Source: an uncultured Mucispirillum sp. (GTDB taxonomy: Bacteria > Chrysiogenota > Deferribacteres > Deferribacterales > Mucispirillaceae). From it: a stretch of 64,000 nucleotides of DNA. Under the pieces are notes generated by a model. The model ran no database searches. It was not told the origin of the DNA and saw only the letters and a program-made list of their open reading frames with translations. The DNA is taken from assembly GCA_944325215.1 (NCBI GenBank), contig CALUZC010000001.1, positions 62,001-126,000 on the forward strand, read 5' to 3'. Positions 9,293 through 28,936 of the stretch are shown piece by piece; position 1 is the first letter of the stretch; each line of letters begins with the position of its first letter. The translations under genes were made by a program, and so were the position numbers.

Positions 9293-9307
9293 TAAGTTAT
9301 ATCAATA
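9287..9307. promoter_or_regulatory. Palindromic operator, Fur-box-like
   Basis: TATTGATA and TATCAATA form a perfect 8-bp inverted repeat around a 5-bp centre. The inner 15 bases (9290-9304) match the 7-1-7 Fur consensus TGATAATnATTATCA at 11 of 14 defined positions. It overlaps the -10 region, where a repressor would block transcription. The downstream cargo, a TonB-dependent receptor with ExbBD-TonB, is a typical Fur target set. That Fur is the regulator is inference; AT-rich background makes chance matches easier. Confidence 0.4.
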
Positions 9308-9328
9308 AAAAAGTTTTAGGAGTTAACT

Positions 9329-12300
9329 ATGAAAAAATTTTCAGCATTAGTTGTATCACTTGCAGTTATTGCTGCTGGCTGCAGCAGTAGTGGTGGTAAT
9401 TCTGGTGGCAGTTCAGCTGCACCAGTAATGACTATTACAGGAAAAGTTAGTGACCCTGCTGTTGAAGGGGCAAAAGTAGAGTTGCTTGATAGTAGTAAAA
9501 ATATATATGGTAAATGTGGGGTTAATGGTAATTCATTATGTAATGTATGGAGCAAAAGTGATGGTTCTTTTGTAATCACATTACCACAAGGCACAGATGT
9601 AAGTAATTTCTCATTAAAATCAACAGGGGGAACAGATACTGCATATGGCACTGAAATAACTGTTTCTTATACTGCAGATATTAATAATTATGCAGGAAAT
9701 TACAGTAATATTATTCTTTCACCTATATCTTCGCTGTATACTAATCTTTTATTATCAAATACGCATGATAATGCAATAACTATATTATCCAGCTATTTTG
9801 GTCTTGCTAAAAATGTAGTACTTCTTAACCCAGAAAGTAATGGAGATTTACTAAAAATATCTTACATTATAAATCAAATCGCTTCAAATATTGGAAGTGA
9901 TGATGCTTTTAGTAAAATAGCCGCTTTAATTAAATCAACAAGTCAGTTTACTACTGATATTGATAATATGCTTGCTTCTTTATTTGCAAGTAATTCTCAA
10001 CTACAGGCATCACTAAAAGAAATGTACCAAAATGTATCCAGCATACAAAGTCAAGATGTATATACAGTGCTTTCTTCCATTCAAAATCTTGAAAAAGTGC
10101 GTATGTTTAAAAATGCTTATGTAAATATTTTTGAAGGTATAAGTGGGCAGGCATCAGCTGAAGCTTTAGCAAATATTGAGTCATTATATAATCAGTTAAA
10201 TAATAGAGTAGTAATACCTACAAGCCAGTTCCAAATAGAGCAAATTGTTAGGTTTGTTGCTTCTCAAACTGTTTTAACATCAAAAAAATTAAATGATTAT
10301 GCAAATTTTGATGTAGATGCTGCTTCTTTTCAAACTACATTAAATGCTGTTATTAGCGATGCTGCATTAATTGCAGATATTAAAACACTAGCTTCAGAAA
10401 CAGTTTATGCTGTAACTGTGCCACTTGACAGCCCACTTGGTTTAAGTGATAACCAAAAAAGGGTAGATTATTACTTTAATTCCACACAAGATGTAGGTTA
10501 TCAGGCAAGGCTTATTACTAAAAGAGTAACAAGTGATACTATAATTGATGAGATATATAAAAATATAACATCAACTTATGCTCAGTATGGGCTGGTTGAA
10601 AAAGCAAAAAAATTAGCAGATGTAAATATTGCAGATAATATGGCAAGAATAAATGCTGTTATTTCTATTGCAAGATATGCATCAGGCTATAACTTAACTT
10701 TAGCAAAAACATATATTGCAGAAGCAAAACAGTTACTAGATACTTTAAAGGGCAGTGGCTGGTCTGATATTAGTAATGATGTGGTAGATACTTATGTAAG
10801 CCTTGTGGGAGCTTACAGATATGCAGGAATGGTAAGTGAAGCAAATGTTTTAAAAAATGAGATTATTAATTTGATTAAAACTTCATCATCTTTAAATGAA
10901 AACAATAAGCAAACAAGATATTTAAGAATTGTATCTGCTTTTGGTAATGCAGCAGATGATTCCATGATACCAGCTTTAATATCACAAGGTAATTTAGAGC
11001 TGGCTTACAGCATGCTTCAAGAGTATAAATTACTAATAGATAATACTCCATGGAATAAAGCAAATGAAACATATAAAAATATGCAGGGAATGTATTATGT
11101 TTTTTATTTAAAATTTGCTTCAGATATTGTAGCAAAAGACAGCTCATATAAAGCAAAACTACAGTCTGATTTTACAACTGTTTATAGTACTGTAAAAAGC
11201 CTAATACAGACAGGAAGCACAACAACTAATGTTGCAAACTATTTAAAAGGAACAAGTGTGGCAGGTGATGCAATAATTTCAGCTTATAAATTTATTGGTG
11301 AAACTTCTGCCAATGAAATACTTGCTTTAATTACTGAAACAGATAAAGCTTATCCTTATGCAATAGGTGGTTTAGTTTTAGAAAAGGCTAAAAGTAATGG
11401 TTTTAATACTGCAAAAGATTATTATGAAAGAGAATACCTAATGGATAGCGAATATGCAAGATTAACAGAAACAAATGGATATGTGGATACTATAAAAAAT
11501 ATTGTAGAATATGCTCAAGATAGTAATAATACTACTCTTGCAAAAGAAGCTGTTGATTATTTAGCTAATCAAACAAGTCAGGCAGTAGATTATCTTGTTA
11601 CAAATAATAAAACTTTATCAAGATTAATATATATATCCATTGTAAGCTCAAACCCTCAGGGTAAATTTGTAAGTTTTTATGGCTTTAATGCAGTTGCAGA
11701 TATGTATATTGCTTTAGGTTATAATAATGAAGCATTAAGCATATTAGATAAAGCTAATACATATATTGAAAGCCTTAATCCTTCAATAGATAAATATACT
11801 GGTTATATATTAATGTCTTATATGGCTCAAAGGGCAGGCAGTGCAGATAAAGCTATACAATATTATAATAATGCAGTTGCTGTAGAATTAACTTCTGGAA
11901 CAGCTCAAAATATTAGTGATTTAAATATTCATAAAGCATCTGATACTTTATCGTTAAATATTGCAAATAAAGAAACATTATACCAAAATTACCTTATAAA
12001 AGCTGAAGAACAAGTGCTGTCAATGGATAGTTCCACTGATCCGAATAAAAATAAGCAGGTTAGCCAGTATACATATATAGCAAATGTTTATTATGACATT
12101 GCAAATATTACCGGCATAAAAAATATGTTAGTAAAAGCAGAAAACCATGCAAAAAACATAGGTGCAGCTGCAACTAAATTAACGGCTATGAAAAATATTG
12201 CAAAAAAATATGCCAGCTTTGAGATGGTTGATGAAGGGTTTAGTCTTGCAGAAAGAAACTACACATCATCTGCTGATATTTTTGCAATAGCACAGGAAAT

Positions 12301-12502
12301 GGCAGCATCTGTTTTAGATTCAACAAGTATAGATTCAGATATTGCATTTGTTGATACAGACAGGGACGGCAAACCAGATTTCTTCCTGCCAAGTGCAAAA
12401 CCTGAACAGATTACAGCATCAGGATTAACCCTTGATGATGATATTGATGGCGACGGTATAAAAGATGATACTGATTTGCTGCCTTATGTTGCAAATAATT
12501 AA
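9329..12502 (+). CDS. Large lipoprotein with helical repeats and C-terminal calcium-type motifs
   Basis: The 1057-aa product begins with a lipoprotein signal peptide; the lipobox is 'IAAGC' and the acylated Cys is followed by Ser, so outer-membrane sorting is expected if Lol rules apply. Residues 30-120 look like a small beta domain ('GKVSDPAVEGAKVELLD', a carboxypeptidase-regulatory-like strand pattern). Residues 400-960 are helical pairs resembling TPRs. The end carries two Asp-rich motifs, 'DTDRDGKPDFF' and 'DIDGDGIKDDTD', of the thrombospondin type 3/EF-hand style that bind calcium. The family is not recognised. AGGAG lies six bases before the ATG. Position in front of a TonB receptor suggests a surface or periplasmic partner of uptake. 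Confidence 0.75.
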   Translation: MKKFSALVVSLAVIAAGCSSSGGNSGGSSAAPVMTITGKVSDPAVEGAKVELLDSSKNIYGKCGVNGNSLCNVWSKSDGSFVITLPQGTDVSNFSLKSTGGTDTAYGTEITVSYTADINNYAGNYSNIILSPISSLYTNLLLSNTHDNAITILSSYFGLAKNVVLLNPESNGDLLKISYIINQIASNIGSDDAFSKIAALIKSTSQFTTDIDNMLASLFASNSQLQASLKEMYQNVSSIQSQDVYTVLSSIQNLEKVRMFKNAYVNIFEGISGQASAEALANIESLYNQLNNRVVIPTSQFQIEQIVRFVASQTVLTSKKLNDYANFDVDAASFQTTLNAVISDAALIADIKTLASETVYAVTVPLDSPLGLSDNQKRVDYYFNSTQDVGYQARLITKRVTSDTIIDEIYKNITSTYAQYGLVEKAKKLADVNIADNMARINAVISIARYASGYNLTLAKTYIAEAKQLLDTLKGSGWSDISNDVVDTYVSLVGAYRYAGMVSEANVLKNEIINLIKTSSSLNENNKQTRYLRIVSAFGNAADDSMIPALISQGNLELAYSMLQEYKLLIDNTPWNKANETYKNMQGMYYVFYLKFASDIVAKDSSYKAKLQSDFTTVYSTVKSLIQTGSTTTNVANYLKGTSVAGDAIISAYKFIGETSANEILALITETDKAYPYAIGGLVLEKAKSNGFNTAKDYYEREYLMDSEYARLTETNGYVDTIKNIVEYAQDSNNTTLAKEAVDYLANQTSQAVDYLVTNNKTLSRLIYISIVSSNPQGKFVSFYGFNAVADMYIALGYNNEALSILDKANTYIESLNPSIDKYTGYILMSYMAQRAGSADKAIQYYNNAVAVELTSGTAQNISDLNIHKASDTLSLNIANKETLYQNYLIKAEEQVLSMDSSTDPNKNKQVSQYTYIANVYYDIANITGIKNMLVKAENHAKNIGAAATKLTAMKNIAKKYASFEMVDEGFSLAERNYTSSADIFAIAQEMAASVLDSTSIDSDIAFVDTDRDGKPDFFLPSAKPEQITASGLTLDDDIDGDGIKDDTDLLPYVANN

Positions 12503-12512
12503 TTAAAATTTA

Positions 12513-12540
12513 ACCTGTGCCTTTTGGCACAGGTGTTTTT
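12513..12540 (+). terminator. Intrinsic terminator or attenuator between lipoprotein and receptor
   Basis: ACCTGTGCC and GGCACAGGT form a perfect 9-bp stem with a TTTT loop, followed by GTTTTT. It lies ten bases after the lipoprotein stop and ends twelve bases before the receptor ATG. Because there is no room for a promoter after it, transcription of the receptor must come from read-through or from within the lipoprotein gene. Confidence 0.85.
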
Positions 12541-12551
12541 AGGCTTAATTA

Positions 12552-15080
12552 ATGAATTATACCAATAGATATTTAAAAATAAAACTCATACTAATACTTA
12601 TACCTTGTTTGCTATTTTTAGCAGCAGCTGTTGTATTAGCTGATGAAAATATGGAACATGATAATATAGATAATGAAACATATATAGAAGATACATTTAT
12701 TATGGAAGATATGGACGTAATTGAAACTATTGGCGAAGGAGCAGATTCTGGGGTAACAGAAATACCTAGAGATATGATAGAGCTTATTCCCAGTGGTAAT
12801 CAAGGTGTTACAGATATTTTAAAAATTGCCCCGGGAGTTCAGTTTAGCGAAGAATACAGGGGAGCATCTTCTGCTGGTGAAATTTCACCGGGGCAAATAT
12901 CCATATCAGGTGCAGCTCCCTATGACAATTTATTTTTACTTGATGGAATGTCTAATTCAAGCTTATTAGACCCGGCGTCAAATAACCCTAATTTAGCAAG
13001 CGATGTGGCAGGTGACCCACAGAAGTTTTTTATAAGCCAGTGGTTAATTGATGATGTTACCTTATATGACAGCGATATTTCAGCTAAATATGATGGATTT
13101 CAAGGGGGTGTAGTTGATGTTAAAACAAGAAAACCTGGTTCAGAGTTTGGTGGTAATTTATCATACAGAGGTACAAACAACTATTTAACAAACTTTTTCT
13201 TAAATGATGATGCTTATAATAATTTTTTAAACAGTGACCAGTCTAATCAGCTTTATTTTGAAAAACATTTTTTAAGTGCAGCATTAGATATTCCAATAAA
13301 TAATAAGGGTGGCATATTATTAAGTTATAATAGAAACTGGTCTAAAATACCATTAATGAACTTTAAAAACTGGAAAAATCAAGAAAGAGTTTCAGAAAGT
13401 TATTATGCAAAAGGTTTATATAATATTAACAGTGCAAGCTATATTGAATCATCTTTTTCTTATTCGCCACATAATAACAAGTATTTTATAAAAAATACAT
13501 TAAACAGCGATTTTAATATAAAAGGTGGTGGGTATTTTGGTGCTTTAAATTACGTTAATGAAACAGGCGGACACAAAATAAAACTTCATGCTGATTATTC
13601 TTATTCAGAAAATAAAAAAATATCCCCAGATGATTATAAATCATGGGCTGCAACTTCTTTTAAACCATGGGGCTATGATTCATCTTCAACTTCTGAACAG
13701 CCTTTAAGTATGGAAGGTGGTTTTGGTAGTATTGATAAATATGAACACCAGGCAAAATTAAATTTTGACCACAATGTAAAACCATTAGATTTTTTTGGGG
13801 AACATAATATAAGTTATGGGGTATCATATTCTTTTGGTTATGGCAGGTATTTAAGGAAAAACGATGCTCACACATATAAAGATGCAATATTAAGCACAGG
13901 TGTTATATGTGGTGGAGATTTTGGAACATGTGTAGATGGTGACCAGTATTTTTCATCAAGATATACAACACCATCAAGTGATGTTAGTGCCATAATAAAT
14001 GAAGTTAGTGGATATATAGAAGAAGATTATCAAATAGAAAGGGTAAATTTAAGGGCAGGTTTAAGAGTAAGTTATGATGATTATATGACTAATGTAAATT
14101 TTTCACCACGTATACGTTTATCTATTGATTTATTAAATAATAAAAACACAATTTTAACTGGTGGATATGGCAGATATTATGCAGCATCTATGATGACTTA
14201 TAAATTAAGGGAAGGTAGAGCACCTAGCTTTTATGAAGAAAGATGGACTTCAAGAAATGAACTTCAAAATTGGCAGTTAAGCAGTGATAATGTGCGTTCT
14301 GCTTATAAGTTTGATAATTTAAAAACACCTTATAATGATGAATATACTGCAAGTATTAATCAAAAAATATTTGATAGTTATATAAATTTAAAATATGTGG
14401 AACGTCATGGAAAAGATGGTATAGCTTCATCAAGAAGTGTAAGCAGCAGCGATGGAATTTCTTATTATACATTTAACAATAATGGAACAAGCTTATACAG
14501 GGCTGTTCAATTAAAATGGAGCAAATCTTGGAAAAACCATAAATTACTTGCAAATTTAACATGGTCCATGTCTGAAACATCAAATGATTCATATGATGAT
14601 ACTTTTGATATAGAAGAAATGGAAGATATTATATACTACAATGGTAAGCAAATACATCTTTATGAACTTCCAAAAAGTAACTTTGCACGCCCAGTTATTT
14701 TAAATGTAGCTTATGTTGGCAGGTATTTTGACCATTTAAAAATATCTGTAGCTCTAAATTATAAATCTCCGTATGTAGCAATAGAACAAGTGGAAGATAA
14801 AAGCTATGGTTATCAAGAGGTAGATCCTGTTACAGGCGGCTTAGTCTCTAAAACAACATCATCTTATGAAGATGTGCAATACGGTCATAATTTTACAGTG
14901 GATTTAGGGCTTTATTGGGAACAGCCATTATGGAAAAATAATAAGCTTACAATATTTTGTGAAGTATATAATCTTTTTAATACTAAAAACATAATAGGTA
15001 AAAGGGTATATTCTTCCACTGATGCCAATGATTATGAATTAGGAACTCAGTTATGGGTTGGAGCAAATTATGAATTTTAA
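12552..15080 (+). CDS. TonB-dependent outer-membrane receptor
   Basis: The 842-aa protein has a signal peptide (hydrophobic to about residue 29, cleavage after 'VLA'), an acidic linker with a possible TonB box near 'EDMDVIE', then a plug domain (about residues 70-190: 'IPRDMIELIPSG', 'ISISGAAPYDNLFLLDGM') and a long beta barrel ending in aromatic Phe ('VGANYEF'). Ligand is unknown. A predicted extracellular loop has two cysteines seven residues apart ('ICGGDFGTC'), probably a disulfide. It starts right after a hairpin terminator with AGG at 12541-12543. The ABC ATPase start overlaps its end. The energiser genes exbB, exbD and tonB lie 3 kb downstream on the same strand, so import through this barrel is probably their main job. 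Confidence 0.9.
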   Translation: MNYTNRYLKIKLILILIPCLLFLAAAVVLADENMEHDNIDNETYIEDTFIMEDMDVIETIGEGADSGVTEIPRDMIELIPSGNQGVTDILKIAPGVQFSEEYRGASSAGEISPGQISISGAAPYDNLFLLDGMSNSSLLDPASNNPNLASDVAGDPQKFFISQWLIDDVTLYDSDISAKYDGFQGGVVDVKTRKPGSEFGGNLSYRGTNNYLTNFFLNDDAYNNFLNSDQSNQLYFEKHFLSAALDIPINNKGGILLSYNRNWSKIPLMNFKNWKNQERVSESYYAKGLYNINSASYIESSFSYSPHNNKYFIKNTLNSDFNIKGGGYFGALNYVNETGGHKIKLHADYSYSENKKISPDDYKSWAATSFKPWGYDSSSTSEQPLSMEGGFGSIDKYEHQAKLNFDHNVKPLDFFGEHNISYGVSYSFGYGRYLRKNDAHTYKDAILSTGVICGGDFGTCVDGDQYFSSRYTTPSSDVSAIINEVSGYIEEDYQIERVNLRAGLRVSYDDYMTNVNFSPRIRLSIDLLNNKNTILTGGYGRYYAASMMTYKLREGRAPSFYEERWTSRNELQNWQLSSDNVRSAYKFDNLKTPYNDEYTASINQKIFDSYINLKYVERHGKDGIASSRSVSSSDGISYYTFNNNGTSLYRAVQLKWSKSWKNHKLLANLTWSMSETSNDSYDDTFDIEEMEDIIYYNGKQIHLYELPKSNFARPVILNVAYVGRYFDHLKISVALNYKSPYVAIEQVEDKSYGYQEVDPVTGGLVSKTTSSYEDVQYGHNFTVDLGLYWEQPLWKNNKLTIFCEVYNLFNTKNIIGKRVYSSTDANDYELGTQLWVGANYEF

Positions 15081-15963
15081 TAATGTTGTTATTTCAGTTG
15101 CAAATTTAGAGCATAGTTACGGTTCTACAAAAGTATTAAACGGACTAAACTTTACCATAGAAAAAGGGAAAATATTTGGTCTTTTTGGTAAAAATGGAGC
15201 TGGTAAAACTACAACTATAAATATTTTAATGGGTTTTTTAACTCCAGAAAAAGGGGAGTGTATTATATATGGTGAAAAAGCAGCCAGTTTAAGTAATGAA
15301 AATAAAAGACGCATAGGACTTTTACATGAAGGTCATATTAGCTATGATTTTATGACTTTAGAGCAGACAGAAAAGTTTTATAAAGATTTTTTTCCAAACT
15401 GGGAAAGTAAAACATTTGCATATTTTATGGAAAAACTAGGGCTTCCAAAAAATAGAAAAATAAAACATATGTCTTGTGGGCAGCGTTCTCAAGTAGCGTT
15501 AGCTGTTTTAATGGCACAAGGGGCAGAAACCTTAATTTTAGATGATTTTTCTATGGGGCTTGATGCTGGGTATAGAAGGCTGTTTTTAGACCATCTAAAT
15601 CAGTTTGTAAAAGATAATAATAAAACCATATTAATTACTTCCCATATTGTGCAGGATTTAGAAAGGTTTGTTGATGAAGCGGTTATAATAAATAAAGGTC
15701 ACGTTTTGCTTTCAGCACCTCTTTCTAATATAAAAGATGGAATATATGGATATAAACTTCCACTAAATATAGATATAGAAAAGTTTAGAAACCATAAGGA
15801 TATTTTAGATATATCTATAACAAAAGAGCATTATGAGGTTATCTCAAAACTTACACTAGAAGAAAGTTTTAATTTATTTAAAGATACTGTTAAAAAGGAA
15901 CAGATTATTCCTTACACTGTATCTTTTGAAGATGCTTTTATTGCATTAACAGGCAAATATTAA
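15070..15963 (+). CDS. ABC transporter ATP-binding protein
   Basis: A single ATPase domain with Walker A 'FGKNGAGKTT' near residue 40, signature 'MSCGQRSQ' near 135 and the switch histidine in 'LITSHIVQDLE'. The Walker B reads 'LILDDFSMGLD': the usual catalytic Glu is Asp and the following 'PT' is 'FS', a departure that may slow hydrolysis. About 90 C-terminal residues after the domain are unrecognised, as in BcrA/YtrB-type ATPases. The ATG at 15070 lies inside the last codons of the receptor gene with GGAG six bases before it. It forms a unit with the two membrane proteins downstream. Confidence 0.85.
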   Translation: MNFNNVVISVANLEHSYGSTKVLNGLNFTIEKGKIFGLFGKNGAGKTTTINILMGFLTPEKGECIIYGEKAASLSNENKRRIGLLHEGHISYDFMTLEQTEKFYKDFFPNWESKTFAYFMEKLGLPKNRKIKHMSCGQRSQVALAVLMAQGAETLILDDFSMGLDAGYRRLFLDHLNQFVKDNNKTILITSHIVQDLERFVDEAVIINKGHVLLSAPLSNIKDGIYGYKLPLNIDIEKFRNHKDILDISITKEHYEVISKLTLEESFNLFKDTVKKEQIIPYTVSFEDAFIALTGKY

Positions 15964-15975
15964 ATGGGGAAATAT

Positions 15976-16635
15976 ATGAAAAGCATATTTTATAAAGAAT
16001 TTATAAAATTAAATCGTATTCTACTGGCTGTGTTTATTATAAATACGGCTGTGCTTATATATACTTTTTTTAGAGTAAGGCTTGGAATAATGATGAATGA
16101 ACCAAGTGGTATTTGGCTTGATATAATATTAAAAAATGGCATTTTTTACAGTAAAGTAGAAACTGCATTCTATATATCAGCCTTACTACTTGGTGTTATG
16201 CAGTTTTATCCAGAATTTGAGCGTAAAAGATTTCGTCTTGCATGCCACCTGCCAATAAATGAATATAAAATGATATTTTATACATCACTTTTTGGTTTTT
16301 TTGTAATAGCAGGTATCTGGATTTATAATACACTAGGTGTAGTTTTATTAGCTGCTCAATTTTTTCCTGCAGATATATATAAAGAAATACCTCTTATTAT
16401 TTTTTACTGGTTTTTAAATTCGTTGATTATTTATTCATTTGCTTCATCTATCACACTTGAAGCATCATGGAATGTAAAGCTAAGGCTTGTATTATTAATG
16501 GCAGGTTCTCTCGGTGCATTTAAAATGACAGTGTATAATAGTAATATTTTATATGCATTTACAGCCTTAATATTTGCTATAATCTATTTTTTTGCAATTT
16601 ATTTTCCTGCTTTAAGATTTAGGAAGGGGTTGTAA
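15976..16635 (+). CDS. ABC-2-like membrane permease
   Basis: A 219-aa integral membrane protein with about six hydrophobic segments and the N-terminal 'KSIFYKEFIKLNR' opening common in ABC-2-type permeases of the YtrB/BcrA class. It follows the ATPase stop with no gap; an ATG at 15964 is possible, but GGGGA lies just before the ATG at 15976, so I use that. The substrate is unknown. Exporters of this type often handle lipids, lipoproteins or antimicrobial peptides, or act as sensors. Location inside a TonB uptake cluster is unusual. Confidence 0.7.
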   Translation: MKSIFYKEFIKLNRILLAVFIINTAVLIYTFFRVRLGIMMNEPSGIWLDIILKNGIFYSKVETAFYISALLLGVMQFYPEFERKRFRLACHLPINEYKMIFYTSLFGFFVIAGIWIYNTLGVVLLAAQFFPADIYKEIPLIIFYWFLNSLIIYSFASSITLEASWNVKLRLVLLMAGSLGAFKMTVYNSNILYAFTALIFAIIYFFAIYFPALRFRKGL

Positions 16636-16636
16636 T

Positions 16637-17893: not shown

Positions 17894-18315
17894 AACATTT
17901 AGTCGATTATGGTGTTATAGCAATACTTACTGCAATGAGTATTATTGCAGTAGCAGTAGCTATTGAACGGTTTAGGTTTTTTAAAAAAGTAGATATTGAT
18001 AACTACAAAACACTGGAACTTTTGGAATTAGAACTTACAAAACATATGCACATTATAGCAACCATAGGTTCAAACGCACCTTATGTGGGATTGCTTGGCA
18101 CAGTGCTTGGCATTATGTTTACATTTTCTGTTATGGGAACAGGAGCAGGCGCTAATGTTAATGATATTATGACAGGGCTTGCTCTTGCTCTTAAAGCTAC
18201 AGCCGCTGGGCTTTTAACTGCTATCCCTGCAATTATTTTATATAACATACTTCATAGAAAAGCTAATGAGCTACTGCTTTTAAAGGAGGACAGCCTTGAG
18301 AGAGAAAAGCTTTGA
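17884..18315 (+). CDS. exbB: TonB-system energiser ExbB
   Basis: ExbB forms the proton-channel pentamer that with ExbD energises TonB. The 143-aa product is the short form, with one N-terminal membrane helix and two more around residues 62-85 and 97-120. The MotA/TolQ/ExbB signature 'APYVGLLGTVLGIM' and 'GLALALKATAAGLLTAIPAI' is clear, including the channel threonines. The ATG at 17884 has AAGGA a few bases upstream. It overlaps both the preceding membrane protein and exbD. Confidence 0.93.
   Translation: MGMKHLVDYGVIAILTAMSIIAVAVAIERFRFFKKVDIDNYKTLELLELELTKHMHIIATIGSNAPYVGLLGTVLGIMFTFSVMGTGAGANVNDIMTGLALALKATAAGLLTAIPAIILYNILHRKANELLLLKEDSLEREKL
18282..18289 (+). promoter_or_regulatory. Strong ribosome binding site fixing a TTG start
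   Basis: AAAGGAGG is a near-perfect Shine-Dalgarno match lying inside exbB, six bases before the TTG at 18296. It settles that exbD starts with TTG rather than at a later ATG, which would remove the conserved N-terminus and membrane helix. Confidence 0.8.
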
Positions 18316-18679: not shown

Positions 18680-18680
18680 T

Positions 18681-19427: not shown

Positions 19428-19443
19428 TTTTGGAGAAATATAT

Positions 19444-22266
19444 ATGAAGTTTACATTAAAAAAATCATTTTTCTTAATTTTAATACTACAGTTGTTACTG
19501 ATTACAAGCTGTAAGAAAGCTAATGAACAAAGTGCTCAAGAAGAGCTAATCCCATTTAGTGATAAAGTTGTAACAGGCGTGCTAGATAATGGCTTAAAGT
19601 TTTATATTAAGCAAAATGATTTTCCATCAGATAAAATAGAGTTAAGGCTAAATGTTAGAAGTGGCTCATTAAACGAAACAGAAGAGGAAAGGGGGCTTGC
19701 TCACTTTGTAGAACACATGGCATTTAATGGAACAAAAAATTTTAAAGGTAATGATGTTATAAACTTTATGGAAGAAGCAGGCCTTGTATTTGGTAAAGAT
19801 ACAAATGCATCAACTTCCACAGAATATACAAATTACCAGTTAACAGTTCCATATGATAATGACAGGCTTATAAATACAGCCTTTTTAATACTAAAAGACT
19901 GGGCAGTAAATATTACATTTGATAAGGAAGAAATAGAAAAAGAAAAAGGTGTAATTATAGAAGAATGGCGGGCAAGAAATGATGCAAGATACAGGCTTGG
20001 GGTAGAAAGTAGAAAACATACTCTTGCAGGTTCCTTATACCCAGAACGCGATCCTATTGGTATAATGGATATTGTAAAAGGTGCTAATAAAGAATTATTA
20101 GAAGGATACTATAAAAAATGGTATCGCCCTGATAATATGGCAGTAATTGTCGTAGGTAATATAGATATAGAAAGAGCTAAAAAGTTAATTATAGAAAATT
20201 TTGCAGATATACCAAAGTCGCAAATATATGAACCAGCCAGTAAAAATATTAATTATCCTAAAGGTATTCGAACAGCCGTAGTTAAGGATAAGGAAGCAAA
20301 AGGCATTTTTGCTACTCTTTATATATATCATAAGGGTAAAGAAACAAATACATATAATGAATTTAAAGAAGATGTACTTGAAATGGGTGCATTAAACATG
20401 TTTGCAAGAAGAATGATGCTTGATATTCAAGAAAAAAAATTAAACCTGCTTGCATTAAGGGGTAATGTTAATATTTCAGGTGATAATGCAAAAATTGTAA
20501 CCATATCTGGTTCATTTTTACCAAATACTTTTAATGCTTCACTTAAAAGTATGCTTCAAGAGATAGAAAGAGTGAAAAGATATGGGTTTACCAAAGATGA
20601 ATTAAATTACTTCAAAACTACACAAATGGCATTTTTAGATAAAGCTTCTAAAGAAGATTACAATTTTCCATCAAGCAAATATGCTGACCAATTAAGTGAT
20701 TTTGATACAAAGGGTGGTTATTTTACAGAGTTTCATCAAGATAAAAAACTCTTTGAAAAAGTATTTAATGAAACAAATATTACTAGTTTCAATAGAGCAT
20801 TTCAAAATATGATTGAATCAAATGATATGCTTTTATTAATATCAGCACCTGAAAATCAGTCATCAGATATAAATATATCAAATGATATTTTTAATAAAGT
20901 TTATGCAGAAATTCAAAAAGAACCTTTAAGCCCTGTAGAAGAAACGGCATATACTACTAAATTAATCGATGAAAATATTATAGACGGTAAAGTTATATCA
21001 AGAAAAGACAATAAAGCATTAGGTGTAACAGAAGTTGTATATGAAAACGGTGTAAAATTATATATAAAACAAAATAAAGAAGAGCATAATAAATTTGAAT
21101 TATCTGGTAAAAAACTAGGTGGTTTATCTATTTTATCTGATGATGAATATATTTATGCAGATACTATGACAAAAGTAATATCAAAAAGTGGTTTTCAAAA
21201 TATATCAAAAAGAAATCTTGATGAATTACTGGCTGGTAAAAATGTATCCATATCGCCTGCTGTATCAGAATATACTTTTGATTTTACAGGTGGTGGATTC
21301 AGCGATGATATTGAAAGTGGATTTCAGCTTATATATAAATATTTTACAGCACCAGTTATAGATAAAAACTTTTTAAGTGCTTATATTAATTCTATGATTA
21401 CAAAAATTGAACTTGATAAAAATGATGCTAAAATCCAGTTTGGTAGAAAAGCAACAGAAAAAATGTATAATAAAAATTATAGAAGAAATTATTTAATAGA
21501 AGATGACTTAAAAGAAATAAATGCAGATAAATTACTGGATATATATAATAATAACTATTTAGATATTAATAACTATACTTTTGCCATATCAGGTGATGTG
21601 GATGTGGAACAGGTTATAAAATTAGGTGCAAAATATCTTGGTTCTTTGAAAAAAATAGATAAAAAATCATATTTTAAAGATAGAAATGTATATTTACAAA
21701 GCAGTTATGCAGAATATGAAGCAAATGGAGATAGTGAACCAAGAACTACTTTAAATATAATCAAAATGACTAAGCCAAAGGCAAATGTGCAGGGCAGATT
21801 TATAGCAGGGCTTACAAGAAACATTTTAAGCATTAGAATGAGAGAAGCAATTAGAGAACAAGAAAGCGGTGCTTATTCTGTCTCTACATTTATCAGATAT
21901 ATAGAAGCCCCAAAAACAGAAGTTTTTACTAAAATTGCTTTCCCATGTGAACCATCAAGAAAAGATGAAGTTAGAGCAAAAACATTAAATGTATATGATA
22001 ATTTTATAACAAAAGGTATTACAAATGAAGAATTACAGGCTTCAAAATTAGTGCTAAAAAATAATTACAGCACAGCTTTTAAAGAAAATAAATACTGGAT
22101 AAATACATTAACATATAATAATTTAATGGGCTTAAAAGTTTATTCATTAGAAGAAATAAATAATATATATGATAAGTTAACTGTGGAAGAAGTGAATAAA
22201 TTTATTAATGATAATCTGCTTGGAGCAGATACTTTCATTAGTATTTTAAATCCGGAGCAGAAATAA
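19444..22266 (+). CDS. M16 zinc metalloprotease lipoprotein, FusC/PqqL-like
   Basis: The 940-aa protein carries two M16 halves. A lipoprotein signal peptide ends at 'ITSC' (Cys23) followed by Lys. The inverted zinc motif is 'HFVEH' (His87, Glu90, His91), with a downstream Glu in 'EEIEKEKGVIIEEWR'. The second half has the substrate-clamp sequence 'REQESGAYSV' near residue 800, as in PqqL. M16 clamshell proteases degrade peptides or small proteins inside a closed chamber; FusC and PqqL act with TonB receptors in ferredoxin or related uptake. The ATG at 19444 has GGAG eight bases upstream, so the ATG nine codons earlier is rejected. It overlaps yejA by one base. Confidence 0.88.
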   Translation: MKFTLKKSFFLILILQLLLITSCKKANEQSAQEELIPFSDKVVTGVLDNGLKFYIKQNDFPSDKIELRLNVRSGSLNETEEERGLAHFVEHMAFNGTKNFKGNDVINFMEEAGLVFGKDTNASTSTEYTNYQLTVPYDNDRLINTAFLILKDWAVNITFDKEEIEKEKGVIIEEWRARNDARYRLGVESRKHTLAGSLYPERDPIGIMDIVKGANKELLEGYYKKWYRPDNMAVIVVGNIDIERAKKLIIENFADIPKSQIYEPASKNINYPKGIRTAVVKDKEAKGIFATLYIYHKGKETNTYNEFKEDVLEMGALNMFARRMMLDIQEKKLNLLALRGNVNISGDNAKIVTISGSFLPNTFNASLKSMLQEIERVKRYGFTKDELNYFKTTQMAFLDKASKEDYNFPSSKYADQLSDFDTKGGYFTEFHQDKKLFEKVFNETNITSFNRAFQNMIESNDMLLLISAPENQSSDINISNDIFNKVYAEIQKEPLSPVEETAYTTKLIDENIIDGKVISRKDNKALGVTEVVYENGVKLYIKQNKEEHNKFELSGKKLGGLSILSDDEYIYADTMTKVISKSGFQNISKRNLDELLAGKNVSISPAVSEYTFDFTGGGFSDDIESGFQLIYKYFTAPVIDKNFLSAYINSMITKIELDKNDAKIQFGRKATEKMYNKNYRRNYLIEDDLKEINADKLLDIYNNNYLDINNYTFAISGDVDVEQVIKLGAKYLGSLKKIDKKSYFKDRNVYLQSSYAEYEANGDSEPRTTLNIIKMTKPKANVQGRFIAGLTRNILSIRMREAIREQESGAYSVSTFIRYIEAPKTEVFTKIAFPCEPSRKDEVRAKTLNVYDNFITKGITNEELQASKLVLKNNYSTAFKENKYWINTLTYNNLMGLKVYSLEEINNIYDKLTVEEVNKFINDNLLGADTFISILNPEQK

Positions 22267-24080
22267 TGGTAAAATTTTTAAGTGTATTTTTTATAATAAT
22301 TACTTTTAATACAGCATTTTCTCAAAATATTATTAAAACCCATGCAATATCTTTAACAGACAGCATAAAGTATAATGCAGATTTTAAACATTATGATTAT
22401 GTTAATCCAAATGCACCTAAAGGTGGAACTTTTCGCAGAGCTTTATATGGCACATATGACAGTTTTAATATGTTTGCCTTAAAAGGTGTATCCATGAATG
22501 GTTTGGGATATATCTATGATACTTTATTAACAAGCTCATCAGATGAGGCAGGAACGTATTATGGGCTTTTAGCAGAAAGTATTGAATATCCGGATGATTA
22601 TTCATGGGTTATATTTAATTTAAGAAAAAATGCATACTGGCATGATGGAAAACCTATTACAAGTGAAGATGTTGTATTTAGCTTTAATGAAATTACAAAA
22701 GTAAGTCCTTATTACAGAAATTATTATGCTTTAATAGAAAAAGCTGAAGCAGTTAATAAATATAGAGTAAAATTTATATTTAAAAAAGGTGAAAAAAGCA
22801 GGGAACTTCCACTTATTGCAGGGCAGCTTACAATTATCCCAAAACATTACTGGCAGACAAGGGATTTATCAAAAGCGACACTTGAAATTCCTTTAGGCAG
22901 CGGAGCATATAAAATTACAGATTATACAGCAGGTAAATCTGTAACCTTAAAAAGAGTTCCAAATTACTGGGGTAAAGATATACCAGTAAATAAGGGTATG
23001 GATAATTTTGATACTATAATCTTTGAATATTTTAGAGACCAGACAGTTGCTTTTGAAGCCTTTAAAGCTGGACAGTTTGATTTAATATCAGAAGGTTCTG
23101 GCAAAAGGTGGTATAGAGGTTATACTGGTAAATATTTTGATTTAGGTTACATAAAAAAAGAAGAAATACCTTTTCGTAATGGACAGGGCATGCGTGGTAT
23201 TTTTATGAATACTGCGAAATATCCACTAAATAATATAAATGTAAGAAAAGCTTTAAACTATGCTTATGACTATGAATGGATAAATAAAAATCTATATTTC
23301 GGCAACAATAAAAGATGCGACAGCTTTTTTTCAAACTCACCTTTATCAAGTGGTGTTGTTCCCTCTAGTGAAGTGCAGAAGATTATAAAACAAGTGAAAC
23401 CAAATGCTGATAAAGAGCTATTAACATCACCATTTTATTTTCCTAAAAATCAGGGCGATGCCACAAACAGAGCAAATTTAGTCGAAGCCGTTAAATTATT
23501 ACAGCAGGCAGGATATAAAAATATTAATGGCAAAATGGTTGATAAAAATGGAAAGCCTCTTGTTTTAGAAATTGGTCTTACATCAAAATCACTGGAAAAT
23601 GAGCTTGTTATTTTTCAAAAAGCATTGGAACGAATTGGTGTAGAGTTAAAAATTTTATTTTTAGATAACAGCCAGTATGCACAAAAAGTAAGAAATAAAG
23701 ACTTTATGCTAATATATGCTGGTATGAAACAATCTGAATCACCAGGCAATGAACAGCGTTCCATGTGGGGAAGTTATGCAGCACTTGAAAATGGCACTAG
23801 AAACTATGCTTCAGTTAGAGATGAATCTGTTGATAAACTTATAGATATGATAATACAAGCACCAAACCGTAAAGATTTAGTGTTATATACGCAAGCACTA
23901 GATAGGATACTGCTTTTTGGTTGGTATGTAATTCCTTCTGGTTTTTCTGATAAATACAGGCTTGCTTACTGGGATAAATTTGAAAAACCAGACATTACAC
24001 CATACTATAGTTTAAGTATTTCAAGCTGGTGGATAAATACTGAAAAAGAAGAAAAAATTAATAAAATGGTTATAAAATAA
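22266..24080 (+). CDS. yejA: Peptide-binding protein of YejABEF-type importer
   Basis: A 604-aa periplasmic family-5 solute-binding protein with a signal peptide ending near 'TAFS'. '[21 protein letters not shown]' shortened to its core '[11 protein letters not shown]' is the diagnostic YejA start, followed by '[16 protein letters not shown]', the family-5 signature. YejA binds oligopeptides and, in enterobacteria, microcin C. The whole yejABEF order and subunit sizes are kept. It starts in the TAATG at the M16 protease stop, so protease and binding protein are co-translated, which fits peptide capture after digestion. Confidence 0.9.
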
Positions 24081-24081
24081 T

Positions 24082-25182
24082 ATGAATGCATATATATTAA
24101 AAAGATTATTTTTAATAATTCCTACACTGCTTGGTATATTTACCATAAACTTTTTTCTAATACAGGCAGCTCCCGGTGGACCTGTAGATACTATGATTGC
24201 AAAAATTACAGGACAATCAGTAAGTATAGAAGATAGAGCACTAGGGAATGATTCATCAAATGAAAGGCTGGAATTATCAGAAGAAACAAATGACCTAGCA
24301 TCTAAATATGCTGGAGGGCAGTATCTTTCCCCTGAATTAATAAAAGAAATAGAAAAATTATATGGCTTTGATAAGCCAATTATAGAACGTTTTTTCTTAA
24401 CTTTAAAAAATTATTTATTATTTGATTTTGGTGATAGTTTTTTTACAGATAAAAGCGTTATGCAAATGATAAAAGAACGGCTGCCAGTATCAATTTCTCT
24501 TGGTGTCTGGAGCACAGTGTTAATTTATTTAATCAGCATACCACTTGGTATTAAAAAGGCAGTAAAACATGGCTCAAAGTTTGATGTTTGGAGCTCATTT
24601 TTTATAATATTAGGCTCTGCAATTCCTATATTTCTTTTTGCAGTAATTTTAATTATATTTTTTGCAGGCGGTAATTATTTTGCATGGTTTCCACTTCGTG
24701 GGCTTACATCAGAAGGATTTGAACATATGTCGTTAATAGGTAAAATTATGGATTACTTATGGCATATATTTCTACCAATATTTAGTATGGTTATAGGTGG
24801 CTTTGCTGGTCTTACTATGCTTACTAAAAATTCATTTCTTGATGAACTTCATAAGCAGTATGTTATTACTGCAAGAGCAAAAGGAATATCTGAAAAAAGA
24901 GTTCTTTATGGTCATATTTTTAGAAATGCTATGCTTATTGTTATATCAGGGCTTCCTGCAACTTTTATATCTATGTTTTTTTCAGGTTCATTACTTATTG
25001 AAGTTATTTTTTCATTAAATGGTATGGGGCTTATGGGGTTTGAAGCTGCTATTAATAGGGATTATCCTGTAATGTTTAGCACTTTATATATTTTTACATT
25101 AATTGGACTTTTACTTAATCTAATAAGCGATATTACATATACACTTGTAGACCCTAGAATATCTTTTAAAGCTGTAAATTGA
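24082..25182 (+). CDS. yejB: Peptide ABC transporter permease YejB
   Basis: A 366-aa inner-membrane permease of the DppB/OppB class. It opens with '[20 protein letters not shown]' and has about six helices; the cytoplasmic coupling loop '[24 protein letters not shown]' with its EAA-like Ala-Lys-Gly core is near residue 265. The insertion between helices 1 and 2 (about 90 residues) is typical of YejB. It begins one base after yejA and is followed seven bases later by yejE. Confidence 0.92.
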
Positions 25183-25189
25183 GGATAAT

Positions 25190-26203
25190 ATGAGTCCAAT
25201 ATTAAAAAGAAGATTAAAAAGATTTAAAAATAATAAAAGGGCATTTATTTCACTTATAATATTTCTAAGTTTATTTGTTATAAGTCTTTTTGCAGAAGTT
25301 ATTGCAAATGATAAACCAATTATTATGAAGTATAAAGACAAGTTTTATTTTCCTGTTTTTTTTACATACAGCGATAAAGAATTTAATGGTTTTTTTGATA
25401 CAGAAGCAAACTATAAAGATGAATTTACCCTAAATGAAATAACTAATAACGGTTGGATTATATGGCCTATTATTAAATACAGCTATGACACAATAGAATA
25501 CAACATGCCATCACCACCACCACTGCCACCAACTTTAAATAATCCATTAGGTATAGACGCTCAAGGCAGAGATGTTTTTGCAAGATTAATATACGGCTTT
25601 AGGCTTTCTGTTATTTTTGGTATATTACTCACCATTACAACATCAATTATAGGCATTATTGCAGGAGCACTGCAGGGATATTATGGTGGTAAAGTTGATA
25701 TTGCAGGTCAAAGATTTATGGAGATATGGTCAGGTATTCCAATGCTTTATTTGCTTATTATGATAAATAGTATTCTGCGGCCTGGTTTTTGGTGGCTGTT
25801 ATTTTTAATGACATTATTTGGCTGGATGAAACTTGTTGGTGTTGTTCGTGCTGAATTTTTAAAAGCTAGAAATTTAGAATACGTTCAGGCAGCAAAAGCT
25901 ATGGGAGTAAAAGACAGAGTTATTATTTTTAGACACATTTTACCAAATGCACTTGTAGCTTCTATCACTTTTTTACCATTTATTTTAAGCGGCTCTATTA
26001 CATCTCTTACTTCCCTTGATTTTTTAGGGTTTGGTATGCCTGCAGGTTCACCATCACTAGGCGAATTACTGTCGTCTGGTAAAGCAAATATTCATGCACC
26101 ATGGCTTGGAGTATCAGCTTTCGTTTTACTTTCACTACTTTTAAGCCTGCTGGTTTTTATTGGAGAGGGGCTGCGTGATGCATTTGACCCTAATAAAATA
26201 TAG
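25190..26203 (+). CDS. yejE: Peptide ABC transporter permease YejE
   Basis: The second permease, 337 aa, of the DppC class. 'SPILKRRLKRFKNNKRAFIS' is the usual cytoplasmic entry, and 'NPLGIDAQGRDVFARLIYGFR' marks the start of the transport domain near residue 117. The coupling motif 'YVQAAKAMGVKDRVIIFRHI' lies near residue 228. The proline-rich 'MPSPPPLPPTLNNPLG' stretch before the domain is characteristic of YejE. GAGG lies just before the ATG. Confidence 0.92.
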   Translation: MSPILKRRLKRFKNNKRAFISLIIFLSLFVISLFAEVIANDKPIIMKYKDKFYFPVFFTYSDKEFNGFFDTEANYKDEFTLNEITNNGWIIWPIIKYSYDTIEYNMPSPPPLPPTLNNPLGIDAQGRDVFARLIYGFRLSVIFGILLTITTSIIGIIAGALQGYYGGKVDIAGQRFMEIWSGIPMLYLLIMINSILRPGFWWLLFLMTLFGWMKLVGVVRAEFLKARNLEYVQAAKAMGVKDRVIIFRHILPNALVASITFLPFILSGSITSLTSLDFLGFGMPAGSPSLGELLSSGKANIHAPWLGVSAFVLLSLLLSLLVFIGEGLRDAFDPNKI

Positions 26204-26212
26204 GTGTAAAAT

Positions 26213-27781
26213 ATGCTTAAAGTTGAAAATTTAGAAATAGTTTTTAATACAGAATTAGGAAAAGTTGTTGCCGTTAAAGATTTCTCTTTTCATGTGAAAA
26301 AAGGGGAAATTATGGCTATTGTTGGAGAAAGTGGCTCTGGTAAATCAGTTTGTGCATTGTCTATTACAGCATTATTAAAAGAACAAGGTGCAATTATTAC
26401 AAAGGGAAATGTATATTTTAATAACCAAATTATAGACTATAACAATGAAAAGCAATTAAAAGAAATTCGTGGTGGAGAAATAGCTTATATATTTCAAGAA
26501 CCTATGGTTTCTTTAAATCCACTTCATACTATTGGCAGACAAATTACAGAAAGGCTTATTTATGTTGAGGGTGTTTCAAAAAATGAAGCTTTAGATAAGG
26601 CTGTAGAACTTTTATTACTATGTGGTATTAAAAATCCAAAAGAGAGGCTTAACGATTACCCACATAATTTTTCTGGTGGTGAAAGACAGAGAATTATGAT
26701 TGCATCTGCTCTTGCTTCTAATCCAAAATTATTAATAGCAGATGAACCAACAACAGCATTAGATGTAACTGTTCAAAAACAAATTTTAGATTTAATTAAA
26801 AGTTTAAAAGAAAGATTTAATATGTCTGTTTTATTAATAACCCATGACTTAAGAATAGTTAGAAAGTATGCAGATAATATTGTGGTTGTGAGAAATGGCA
26901 ATGTAATAGAGAAAGGAAGCTGTATAGATATTTTTTCTAATCCATTAGATGACTATACAAAATTATTAATTAATACAGAGTATGGCAAGCCTGTAAAAGC
27001 ATGCAGTAATAAAGAAATGTTTAAAGCAGAAAATATTAATGCTTACTATAAATTACCTAAAAAAATATTTAAAAAACAGCAGTATTTTTATGCAGCTAAA
27101 AACATTAATTTATCTATATTAGAGGGAGATAGTTTAGGCATTGTTGGAGAAAGTGGTTCAGGTAAATCAAGTCTTGTTAAAGCATTTCTTCATTTAATTG
27201 ATTTTACTGGCAACGTATATTTTGATAATATATGTTTTAGTCAGCTTAAAAAAGAACATCTAAGAAAGCAGCGCAGGAATATTCAAATTGTTTTTCAAGA
27301 CCCATTTGGTAGTCTAAACCCACGAATGACAGCTGAAATGATTATTAGTGAAGGTATTAAATCATGTGGATACAGCCAAAGTGAAATAAATAAACAAGTG
27401 GAAGAAATATTAATAAAAATAGGACTTCCAGAAAACAGTAAAAATAAATATCCACATGAATTTTCTGGAGGGCAAAGGCAGCGTATTGCTATTGCTAGAG
27501 CAGTAATTATGAAGCCAAAAATTATTATTTTTGATGAACCAACATCATCGCTTGATAAAAATGTTCAAATGCAAATACTAGATATGCTAAGAAATTTACA
27601 ACAGGAATATAAAATTACATATATTTTTATAAGCCATGACCTTCATGTAGTGCAATCTATTTGTAACAATATGGCAGTAATGAAAGATGGCGAGATAATA
27701 GAATATGGTAAAAGTAATGAGATTATTAATAACCCAAAACATAAATATACAAGACAGCTAATAGAAGCAGCTTGGATTTAA
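26213..27781 (+). CDS. yejF: Peptide ABC transporter fused ATPase YejF
   Basis: One 522-aa chain holds two ATPase domains. The first has 'GESGSGKS' near residue 40, signature 'FSGGERQR' near 155 and 'LLIADEPTTALD'. The second has 'GESGSGKSS' near residue 315, 'FSGGQRQR' near 425 and 'IIFDEPTSSLD'. Both carry complete catalytic Glu and His residues, unlike the ATPase at 15070. The fusion is the YejF/DppDF style and completes the importer. Confidence 0.93.
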   Translation: MLKVENLEIVFNTELGKVVAVKDFSFHVKKGEIMAIVGESGSGKSVCALSITALLKEQGAIITKGNVYFNNQIIDYNNEKQLKEIRGGEIAYIFQEPMVSLNPLHTIGRQITERLIYVEGVSKNEALDKAVELLLLCGIKNPKERLNDYPHNFSGGERQRIMIASALASNPKLLIADEPTTALDVTVQKQILDLIKSLKERFNMSVLLITHDLRIVRKYADNIVVVRNGNVIEKGSCIDIFSNPLDDYTKLLINTEYGKPVKACSNKEMFKAENINAYYKLPKKIFKKQQYFYAAKNINLSILEGDSLGIVGESGSGKSSLVKAFLHLIDFTGNVYFDNICFSQLKKEHLRKQRRNIQIVFQDPFGSLNPRMTAEMIISEGIKSCGYSQSEINKQVEEILIKIGLPENSKNKYPHEFSGGQRQRIAIARAVIMKPKIIIFDEPTSSLDKNVQMQILDMLRNLQQEYKITYIFISHDLHVVQSICNNMAVMKDGEIIEYGKSNEIINNPKHKYTRQLIEAAWI

Positions 27782-27791
27782 AGGAGTTATA

Positions 27792-28871
27792 ATGAAAAAA
27801 TTATTATATCTATTTTTATTTATATGTTTAAATTTTCAGATATCATATGCTATAGAATTAGAACATAATCACTTCAAATTTAATATATATTCAAATATTT
27901 ATGGAGATTTTTTTTATAAATATAATAAACCATCAAGTTATACTAATAATATAGACCATCAGTTTGCAAGCTATGCTTTTACAGGCTCATCAAATGCAGG
28001 TATTAGTATAGAATATGGAAAAACAGGTTTCGTATTTGAAGCGGGAATCTCTGATATTATACGTAAATATTATCTACAATATAATATAAACAAGGAAAAG
28101 AAACATTTTATTCTAATAGGTAGAGATACAACTATTGCCCATTTTACCTTTGGTCAAATATCAGACAATTTGGCAGGTTTAAGCAATTATGGAACATTAA
28201 TAGATAAAAACAGACGTTTGCAGATTCGCTATGGAATACTAGGTTTTCAAATAGCTTTTATTTTACCTTATTTAAGTAGCTGGAATCAAGAATATGTTAA
28301 TGATCCAGCATCTTTATATGATGGATTTATAAATATTCCACGTTTTGAGGTATCTTATGATTATTCAAATAAATATATGGAATTAAAAACTTATGCAGGT
28401 TATGGTGCTTATTTATATGACAAAAATATTTACAATAAAATTATTCATTCCGGCAATATTGGTGTGGGAAGTAAATTATTAGTAGACGAAAAATCATCTG
28501 TATATTTATCATTATTTTATGGCTATAACCTTAGTATGACAAACTCACTTACAAATATGAATACTATAACTTTAATTAATAATACTATAAATGTTACAAA
28601 TATTCATTCTTTTGGTGTTGCTGCTGGCTTTAAATATGATTATAATAAATATATAACAACACAAACTGGTCTAGGTTATACATTTAATTATGGAGAAACT
28701 TATGATAGTATTGACGATGCACTTGGTGCATATTTAAACGTTCAAATAAAAGTTAATAAATATTTCAGCATTATACCAGAGCTTTCTTTATTTAATAATA
28801 TGCAGTCAAATACAAAGCAGTCAGAAGGGTATAGTTTCATGGCAGGTATTTTAATGCTTCTACAAATATAA
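27792..28871 (+). CDS. Porin-like outer-membrane beta-barrel protein
   Basis: The 359-aa protein has a signal peptide ending near 'ISYA' and then alternating hydrophobic/polar strands rich in Tyr, Gly and Asn ('GISIEYGKTGFVFEAGIS', 'LGYTFNYGETYDS'), with an N-terminal 'NHFKFNIYSNIYGDFFYKY' strand as in porins. The last strand ends 'YSFMAGILMLLQI', without a terminal aromatic. The family is not recognised. AAGGAG precedes the ATG. It is ten bases after yejF and is the last gene of the island, so an outer-membrane channel for small products or peptides is a reasonable guess. Confidence 0.65.
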   Translation: MKKLLYLFLFICLNFQISYAIELEHNHFKFNIYSNIYGDFFYKYNKPSSYTNNIDHQFASYAFTGSSNAGISIEYGKTGFVFEAGISDIIRKYYLQYNINKEKKHFILIGRDTTIAHFTFGQISDNLAGLSNYGTLIDKNRRLQIRYGILGFQIAFILPYLSSWNQEYVNDPASLYDGFINIPRFEVSYDYSNKYMELKTYAGYGAYLYDKNIYNKIIHSGNIGVGSKLLVDEKSSVYLSLFYGYNLSMTNSLTNMNTITLINNTINVTNIHSFGVAAGFKYDYNKYITTQTGLGYTFNYGETYDSIDDALGAYLNVQIKVNKYFSIIPELSLFNNMQSNTKQSEGYSFMAGILMLLQI

Positions 28872-28936
28872 ATGACCTAAAGAAATAAATATAATATCCG
28901 ATGACTTATGATAGTGAAAAAAAATAATTATCATTC

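Follow-up and report, generated by a model that had tools for sequence, protein, structure and literature searches.

We analyzed a 64,000-nucleotide stretch of DNA (hereafter, the window) from an uncultured Mucispirillum sp. (contig CALUZC010000001.1, forward-strand positions 62,001 to 126,000), in which 14 open reading frames (ORFs), all on the + strand, make up an island at positions 9329–28871. Judging from the encoded proteins, this island quite probably specifies a TonB-powered system that imports a protein and digests it, of the FusA/YddB–PqqL kind. Plant pathogens are known to have a ferredoxin-stealing system, of which the island appears to be an enlarged version; the most fitting reading is that of an expanded protease-associated import system rather than of Fus in the strict sense. 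An earlier note on this DNA had proposed import and digestion, and its proposal is supported by a FusA-type receptor, a PqqL/FusC-type protease, and a conserved pairing of that protease with YejA. Every gene it listed was recovered as an ORF where it had been placed, and the tight single-strand packing it described from 12552 onward is real: over 12552–28871, a span that opens with the receptor gene and closes with the barrel gene, the gene joints measure between −23 and +10 bp. The window has a GC content of ∼30% and its host genome (G000) measures 2.55 Mb. Families were scanned in Pfam and NCBIfam, with matches listed to E ≤ 0.1, and sequences were searched against the PDB to E ≤ 1; G, L, and C numbers denote genomes, fetched loci, and contigs, respectively.

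The TonB-dependent receptor (842 amino acids (aa), 12552–15080), which has a borderline plug domain, matched only two proteins in the PDB, FusA (4zgv, 2.6e-94) and YddB (6ofr, 7.6e-39), and the FusA alignment covers residues 29–840 of the receptor. A siderophore or vitamin B12 receptor, a candidate we considered, was rejected on these matches, in line with the earlier note, and the branching of the receptor beside Desulfuromonadales-type proteins and Pectobacterium FusA agrees. In a tree of 42 receptors, made by a quick method with no bootstrap and carrying a warning for long branches and uneven composition, the 13 Deferribacterota receptors formed one group (support 100), and these together with 12 Desulfuromonadales-type receptors formed a larger one (support 97). 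Next came seven rows from Pectobacterium, Yersinia, Moraxella, and related bacteria, while one Vibrio and nine Rhizobiales receptors were distant and long-branched; the eight receptors of family f1 made a single branch with a support of only 33. Identity of the window receptor was 97% and 96% to Mucispirillum assemblies, the nearest named relatives, 29 to 31% to four Pectobacterium loci, and 23 to 27% to the receptors of Rhizobiales loci L067, L068, L074, and L075. A cysteine pair preceding a G[DE]QY motif is common to the window receptor and FusA, a shared feature that is not proof of ferredoxin binding.

The M16 protease (19417–22266; PF00675/PF05193) is of PqqL/FusC type; its best PDB match was the M16 peptidase 9ldy (2.1e-101), followed by PqqL (2.4e-89) and FusC (9.4e-41). 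The HxxEH motif is intact, as had been noted, reading HFVEH at residues 96–100 and remaining invariant in 8/8 aligned proteases. An E-rich stretch aligns with PqqL and is presumably the site of the third zinc ligand. The earlier description of this protein as a lipoprotein holds for the window and for G040, both of which have a lipobox, and does not extend to the protease family as a trait, because no clear lipobox was seen in four other relatives (G010, G011, G012, and G038). Separately, second M16 copies (1265–1287 bits) lie on other contigs of the four genus g2 genomes searched (G010:C17, G012:C29, G013:C64, and G014:C80).

Directly behind the protease lies a Yej-type peptide importer whose first gene starts at the protease stop codon, position 22266 being common to both genes, as the earlier note had observed. 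It consists of a YejA-type peptide-binding protein (22266–24080; PF00496), the permeases YejB (24082–25182; NF011712, 561.9 bits versus a cut-off of 445) and YejE (25190–26203; NF011596, 468.4 bits versus 439), and a YejF-type double ATPase (26213–27781) whose best match, NF011713, scored 592.7 bits against an equivalog cut-off of 834. What had been called a complete yejABEF thus stands for YejB and YejE and for the presence of a YejA-type protein; YejF falls below its equivalog cut-off, so we term the importer Yej-type rather than an exact equivalent. The YejA-type protein is 65% and 64% identical to its counterparts in G038 and G032, respectively, and 56 to 58% identical to those of the same-family genus g2. 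In one close relative (G007, L033:15490–17304), an in-frame TAA splits yejA into 375 and 228 aa, through either sequencing error or real decay. In the one Pectobacterium locus scanned (L059), the gene behind the protease, at the FusD position, has SbmA_BacA and ABC_membrane_2 domains, neither of which was found in the island proteins at E ≤ 0.1 (for the YejF-type protein, among the best 25 of 46 families). According to an excerpt of PMC10128002, peptide import is a task of BacA as well as of YejABEF, although the two transporters are unrelated. Because a FusD-type gene sits behind the Pectobacterium protease and both transporter types take in peptides, we infer that the Yej-type importer fills the role of FusD.

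The PDB matches of the YejA-type protein bear on another explanation, namely, that the receptor imports a metal complex or a peptide metallophore resembling methanobactin, which the protease trims and the Yej-type importer carries in. The binding protein does match MbnE of Methylocystis (5icq, 5.4e-106), not far from YejA, and a DUF4857 trio like the one in the island is iron-responsive in Bacteroides, as described in an excerpt of PMC10434189. YejA itself (8fss, 3.2e-119) and 7z8e (4.1e-132) nevertheless outscore MbnE, the receptor belongs to the FusA protein-import family, and a large M16 protease would not obviously be needed for a small peptide. We consider metallophore uptake unlikely.

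The import-and-digest reading draws further support from the recurrence of the gene set. Among 50 Deferribacterota genomes (cut-offs of 1e-60 for the protease and 1e-40 for YejA), the receptor, DUF4857, and lipoprotein were each found in the same 14 (G000, G001, G007, G010–G014, G024, G032, G035, G038, G040, and G048); the lipoprotein is near full length in 12 of these and fragmentary in G024 and G035, and weak N-terminal matches to it were all that was seen in G016, G023, and G041. The protease was present in 13 of the 14, missing from G048, and YejA in all 13, with a second copy in G011. The linkage of protease and yej genes is kept in relatives: within the order, YejA is confined to the 13 protease genomes, and the two genes are neighbors in 12 of them, lying on different small contigs in G024. 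YejA also occurs without the protease in G047 and G049, from another family of the phylum. In nine genomes (G000, G001, G007, G011, G012, G014, G032, G038, and G040), a single contig carries the full order, beginning with the lipoprotein and ending with YejA, and contigs break inside the gene set in G010, G013, G024, and G035. The same order, which the earlier note had suggested looking for, was found in other Deferribacterota, including another family of the order, whose members keep it from the lipoprotein through YejF (YejB and YejE there judged by place and size only). The proteins are 26 to 65% identical between the families, and recurrence of the order at such distance argues that it is more than chance. 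Variation was seen in G035, where the ATPase lies between DUF4857 and ExbB, and in G024, with no ATPase between receptor and permease. Among all fetched loci, direct same-strand adjacency of protease and importer was confined to Deferribacterota.

Conservation could also be divided between two functions in one operon, the receptor, lipoprotein, trio, and TonB unit serving iron or heme complexes and the protease and Yej-type importer recycling unrelated periplasmic peptides. G048 fits such a division in retaining the receptor part, with the lipoprotein, receptor, and ATPase on one contig and the permease, DUF4857, and TonB block on another (L107 and L029), so that part can exist without protease and YejA; and no protease is named in the excerpt of PMC10434189 describing a Bacteroides trio and TonB-dependent receptor induced 37- to 128-fold by iron depletion. 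Set against this, within the order, 13 genomes have both halves and none has only one at the cut-offs used, and outside the phylum an M16 protease adjoins FusA in 7/7 loci of Pectobacterium, Yersinia, Symbiopectobacterium, and Moraxella and is present in 8/9 Rhizobiales loci. A pairing of two unconnected functions strikes us as quite unlikely.

The energizing genes encode ExbB (17884–18315; TIGR02805, 153.8 bits versus a cut-off of 135.35), ExbD (18296–18679; PF02472, 5.5e-25; NCBIfam ExbD_2, 90.4 bits, below the cut-off of 123.45), and TonB (18681–19427; PF03544, 1.1e-22). The best PDB matches of TonB are ordinary TonB C-terminal domains, and the TonB–ferredoxin fusion chain 9hi3 was the weakest of 14 matches. 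The earlier note had called this ExbBD–TonB set dedicated; its genes do lie in the island, but exclusive use by the island is only a surmise in a genome with four TonB_C proteins. In the f6 genomes G032, G038, and G040, the three genes are replaced in place by a block encoding a 248- to 249-aa protein, a 447- to 452-aa ExbB, a short ExbB, ExbD, TonB, and a 381- to 385-aa protein (L021:11137–15921, L022:4400–9272, and L027:4341–9213). Pfam assigned DUF3450, MotA_ExbB, MotA_ExbB, ExbD, and TPR to the block of G040, and the TPR protein of G038 was scanned as well. The TonB2/TtpC energizer of Vibrio consists of a DUF3450 protein, a long and a short ExbB, ExbD, TonB, and a TPR protein; the G040 block resembles it, whereas a lone short ExbB with ExbD and TonB is what the window encodes. 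The swap of the energizer for an unlike block in the same position suggests that the system needs a TonB unit as a working part. It also speaks, together with the open frames and an order kept across families at the identities given above, against a relic or recently shuffled island of neighbors without joint function, which we regard as very improbable despite the patchy occurrence in the genus (3/10) and the in-frame stop in the G007 yejA.

From these parts, a protein import-and-digest system would work as follows. The large lipoprotein and the FusA-type receptor would capture a small, probably iron-bearing, protein, whose passage through the receptor would be powered by ExbB–ExbD–TonB; the M16 protease would then cut the imported protein in the periplasm, releasing its cofactor or metal, and the Yej-type ATP-binding cassette (ABC) importer would take in the resulting peptides. 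The DUF4857 trio would form a unit in the inner membrane that goes with the receptor and not with the protease; it may handle the released cofactor or present the lipoprotein. The analysis establishes the gene content, the family relations, the conserved order, the joint presence and absence of genes, and the borders of the island, whereas the class of substrate, the order and direction of the steps, the roles of trio and lipoprotein, and any control by iron are our inferences. Several observations weigh against this model. G048 has neither M16 (1e-60) nor YejA (1e-40) despite its lipoprotein, receptor, and trio, and the protease was found in 0/12 Desulfuromonadales-type loci within the fetched stretches, several of which are short. 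Within the genus, only 3/10 genomes have the system; of the seven that lack it, three are <90% complete. A section heading in PMC6793856 states that PqqL and YddB fail to sustain growth of E. coli in iron-limited LB. Finally, the candidate iron operator described below is only weakly enriched genome-wide, with 58 matches at up to one mismatch versus 41 for a control pattern.

We compared the island with known systems. It has in common with Pectobacterium FusA–FusB–FusC–FusD a FusA-type receptor, a TonB homolog, and an M16 protease. It differs in having the Yej-type importer instead of a FusD-type SbmA/BacA transporter, in adding its own ExbB–ExbD, a lipoprotein, and the DUF4857 trio, and in a protease nearer to PqqL than to FusC. 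Receptor and protease are likewise homologous to those of E. coli yddA–yddB–pqqL, although the window receptor is nearer to FusA than to YddB, and the Yej-type importer, ExbB–ExbD, lipoprotein, and trio again set the island apart from the E. coli cluster. In four of nine Rhizobiales FusA–M16 loci (L067, L068, L074, and L075), an SBP_bac_5-type importer of the Opp/Dpp family lies near FusA and M16, so joining FusA/M16 to peptide import is not unique to the island. There, however, the importer has its own Opp/Dpp composition and lies on the opposite strand, either upstream or downstream, and profile searches of the fetched Rhizobiales stretches found no lipoprotein, trio, or ExbBD–TonB; FusA/M16 and peptide uptake were apparently brought together separately in this case.

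FusA–M16 clusters of the protease-associated import kind are placed in Proteobacteria in the main text of PMC6793856, where words beginning "Yej," "ExbB," or "Deferribacter" were not found. No Fus-type cluster in Deferribacterota was named in the titles and abstracts of the open-access literature, among the matches listed, a search whose scope stopped short of supplementary tables such as S1 Table of PMC6793856, which could list such receptors. Relative to the published family, the island is new in its phylum, in the helical-repeat lipoprotein paired with the receptor, in the DUF4857 ABC trio, and in having Yej where FusD would stand. Very few bacterial systems are known to import whole proteins for nutrition, and the island offers a fuller set of parts from a different phylum, in which a Yej-type importer in FusD's stead proposes a fate for the peptides.

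The lipoprotein (1057 aa, 9329–12502) has an AAGC lipobox in its N-terminal part, and no Pfam or NCBIfam family scored above its cut-off against it. AlphaFold2, given 10 sequences, predicted a beta domain at the N-terminus together with an extended series of helical hairpins (mean predicted local distance difference test score (pLDDT) 76.8; predicted template modeling score 0.58), and a fold search with this model returned generic TPR/PPR proteins at low TM-scores, in keeping with TPR-like helical repeats. A C-terminal acidic motif, DxDxDGKPDFF...LDDDxDGD, of the DxDxDGxxD type, is invariant or nearly so in the 10 sequences; acidic motifs of this kind are often calcium-binding. The lipoprotein gene is the next one upstream of the receptor gene in the Deferribacterota relatives (∼1 kb apart in G012–G014) and also stands upstream of the receptor in 3/12 Desulfuromonadales-type loci (288–352 bits), whose three receptors form one branch (support 96). 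In 11 of the Desulfuromonadales-type loci (L055 left out), there were 0 ORFs with at least three CXXCH motifs that might mark multiheme cytochrome partners. In G048, genes for an FGE-sulfatase domain protein and a two-component system lie upstream of the lipoprotein gene.

The lipoprotein is probably located at the cell surface, where it may act as a lid or capture arm. A terminator-like hairpin with a T-run (12513–12534, + strand) occupies the gap between lipoprotein and receptor genes; the stretch 12503–12551 folds at −19.1 kcal/mol (z −4.8), and 0/200 shuffles did as well. The hairpin is identical in G001 and G007, hairpins of different sequence occur in G011, G012, and G013, and the gap is merely 3 to 9 nt in G032, G038, and G040, which leaves no room for one. 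Lying as it does between the genes, the hairpin suggests that lipoprotein and receptor may differ in expression level, and it may allow an excess of lipoprotein over receptor. SusC/SusD glycan importers similarly place a gene for a helical-repeat lipoprotein beside that of a TonB-dependent receptor; the window receptor, by comparison, is FusA-type, and membership of SusCD was rejected, as no SusD family matched the lipoprotein at E ≤ 0.1. More speculatively, and with the odds somewhat against it, the island could exemplify a phylum-wide class of importer in which a long helical-repeat lipoprotein at the surface serves the FusA-type receptor as lid or capture arm and is linked to a new DUF4857 ABC unit and a modular protease plus Yej add-on. 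If so, it would be a separately evolved SusD-like arrangement, and the add-on would turn cofactor piracy into the use of whole proteins as food.

The trio comprises an ABC ATPase of the exporter (ABC-2) type (15058–15963; PF00005, with PmtA, DrrA, and GldA as best NCBIfam matches, all below cut-off), a 223-aa membrane protein (15964–16635), and a DUF4857 membrane protein (16637–17893; PF16149, 3.7e-69). The 223-aa protein, which matched no Pfam or NCBIfam family at E ≤ 0.1, is presumed from its hydrophobic segments and conserved position to be the partner of the ATPase. An AlphaFold2 model of DUF4857 (mean pLDDT 87.9) has an N-terminal transmembrane helix, a beta-rich propeller-like domain, which is presumably periplasmic, and C-terminal transmembrane helices; its fold search returned partial WD40 propellers, the best with a Z of 9.3 over 168 residues and many rows close behind. 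DUF4857 occurred in 1/14 control genomes, Bacteroides ihuae, and the two f4 genomes (G024 and G035) have two DUF4857 genes each. Away from its receptor, G048 also has a separate ABC ATPase gene followed by a 580-aa ORF with DUF4857 (contig C9, L026:8279–10923). The trio was considered as a counterpart of FusD and rejected, having no SbmA_BacA or ABC_membrane_2 match. In B. thetaiotaomicron, BT3633 (receptor), BT3627 (ATPase), BT3626 (hypothetical), and BT3625 (DUF4857) rose 37- to 128-fold on iron depletion, according to the excerpt of PMC10434189. By locus number, BT3625–BT3633 runs from a TonB-dependent receptor through other genes to ATPase, hypothetical, and DUF4857, and, compared by description in that excerpt, it differs from the island in its PepSY, DUF4876, and fimbrillin proteins, with no M16 or Yej named. 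Occurrence of the trio in an iron-induced Bacteroides receptor locus suggests that it is tied to receptors and iron need more than to the protease.

Upstream of the lipoprotein gene, a TTGACA hexamer (9264–9269) precedes the palindrome TATTGATAAGTTATATCAATA (9287–9307), a candidate Fur-type operator, both read on the + strand. G007 retains the palindrome arms, as does G001 apart from a single arm mismatch. The palindrome core has five exact copies in the genome including that of the island. Of the other four, the two intergenic copies (C2 and C16) neighbor M24 peptidase and Band_7/radical SAM genes; the remaining two lie inside ORFs, one immediately preceding a gene for a 4Fe-4S protein and the other ahead of nothing known. 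No evident iron gene was marked by these four. A Fur-box-like copy with one mismatch, TTGATATTGATTATCAT, starts 42 bp upstream of feoA (L096:1965–2222, contig C9 of G000). Given the weak genome-wide enrichment and the copies without an iron gene, iron control of the island is merely suggested. A promoter scan was uninformative (133 found versus 131.4 expected). As to cargo, Denitrovibrio acetiphilus N2460 is free-living and marine (excerpt of PMC3035293). If G040, which holds the lipoprotein-to-YejF set, is this organism, mammalian host proteins are excluded as the general cargo, and so are host peptides, which the earlier note had listed among its candidate ligands. Since the set is carried by a gut genus and also by a marine bacterium that is apparently free-living, the question of cargo could be narrowed by comparison.

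The last gene of the island (27792–28871) encodes a 359-aa protein that the earlier note read as a porin-like barrel, a putative outer-membrane barrel with no match in Pfam, NCBIfam, or the PDB (E ≤ 1). The gene also follows yejF in G001 and G007 (92 to 93% identity), and no match at 1e-3 was found in G010, G011, G012, G032, G038, or G040 (the G011 contig ends 793 bp past yejF). A place for the barrel in the conserved system was therefore not borne out, its position behind yejF being seen only in this genus, and we count it inside the island unit and outside that system. As a unit, the island extends over ∼19.8 kb (9088–28924, + strand) between tRNA-Gly(ccc) (8945–9017), its left border, and tsaB. 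The longest exact match between the island ends is 10 bases, which makes no credible target duplication, and no recombinase was found among the island genes. Among the seven island-free genomes of the genus, six (G002, G003, G004, G006, G008, and G009) had tsaB without an adjacent tRNA-Gly in the stretches fetched, and one, G005 (57% complete), has an empty site of tRNA-Gly, 113 bp, and tsaB. Window positions 9033–9087 and 28925–28936 align to the two ends of these 113 bp, and on its other side the G005 tRNA-Gly is flanked by a protein gene related (63%) to the NAD(P)H-hydrate dehydratase of the window. From this empty site, the island, barrel gene included, seems to be gained or lost as a whole within the genus.

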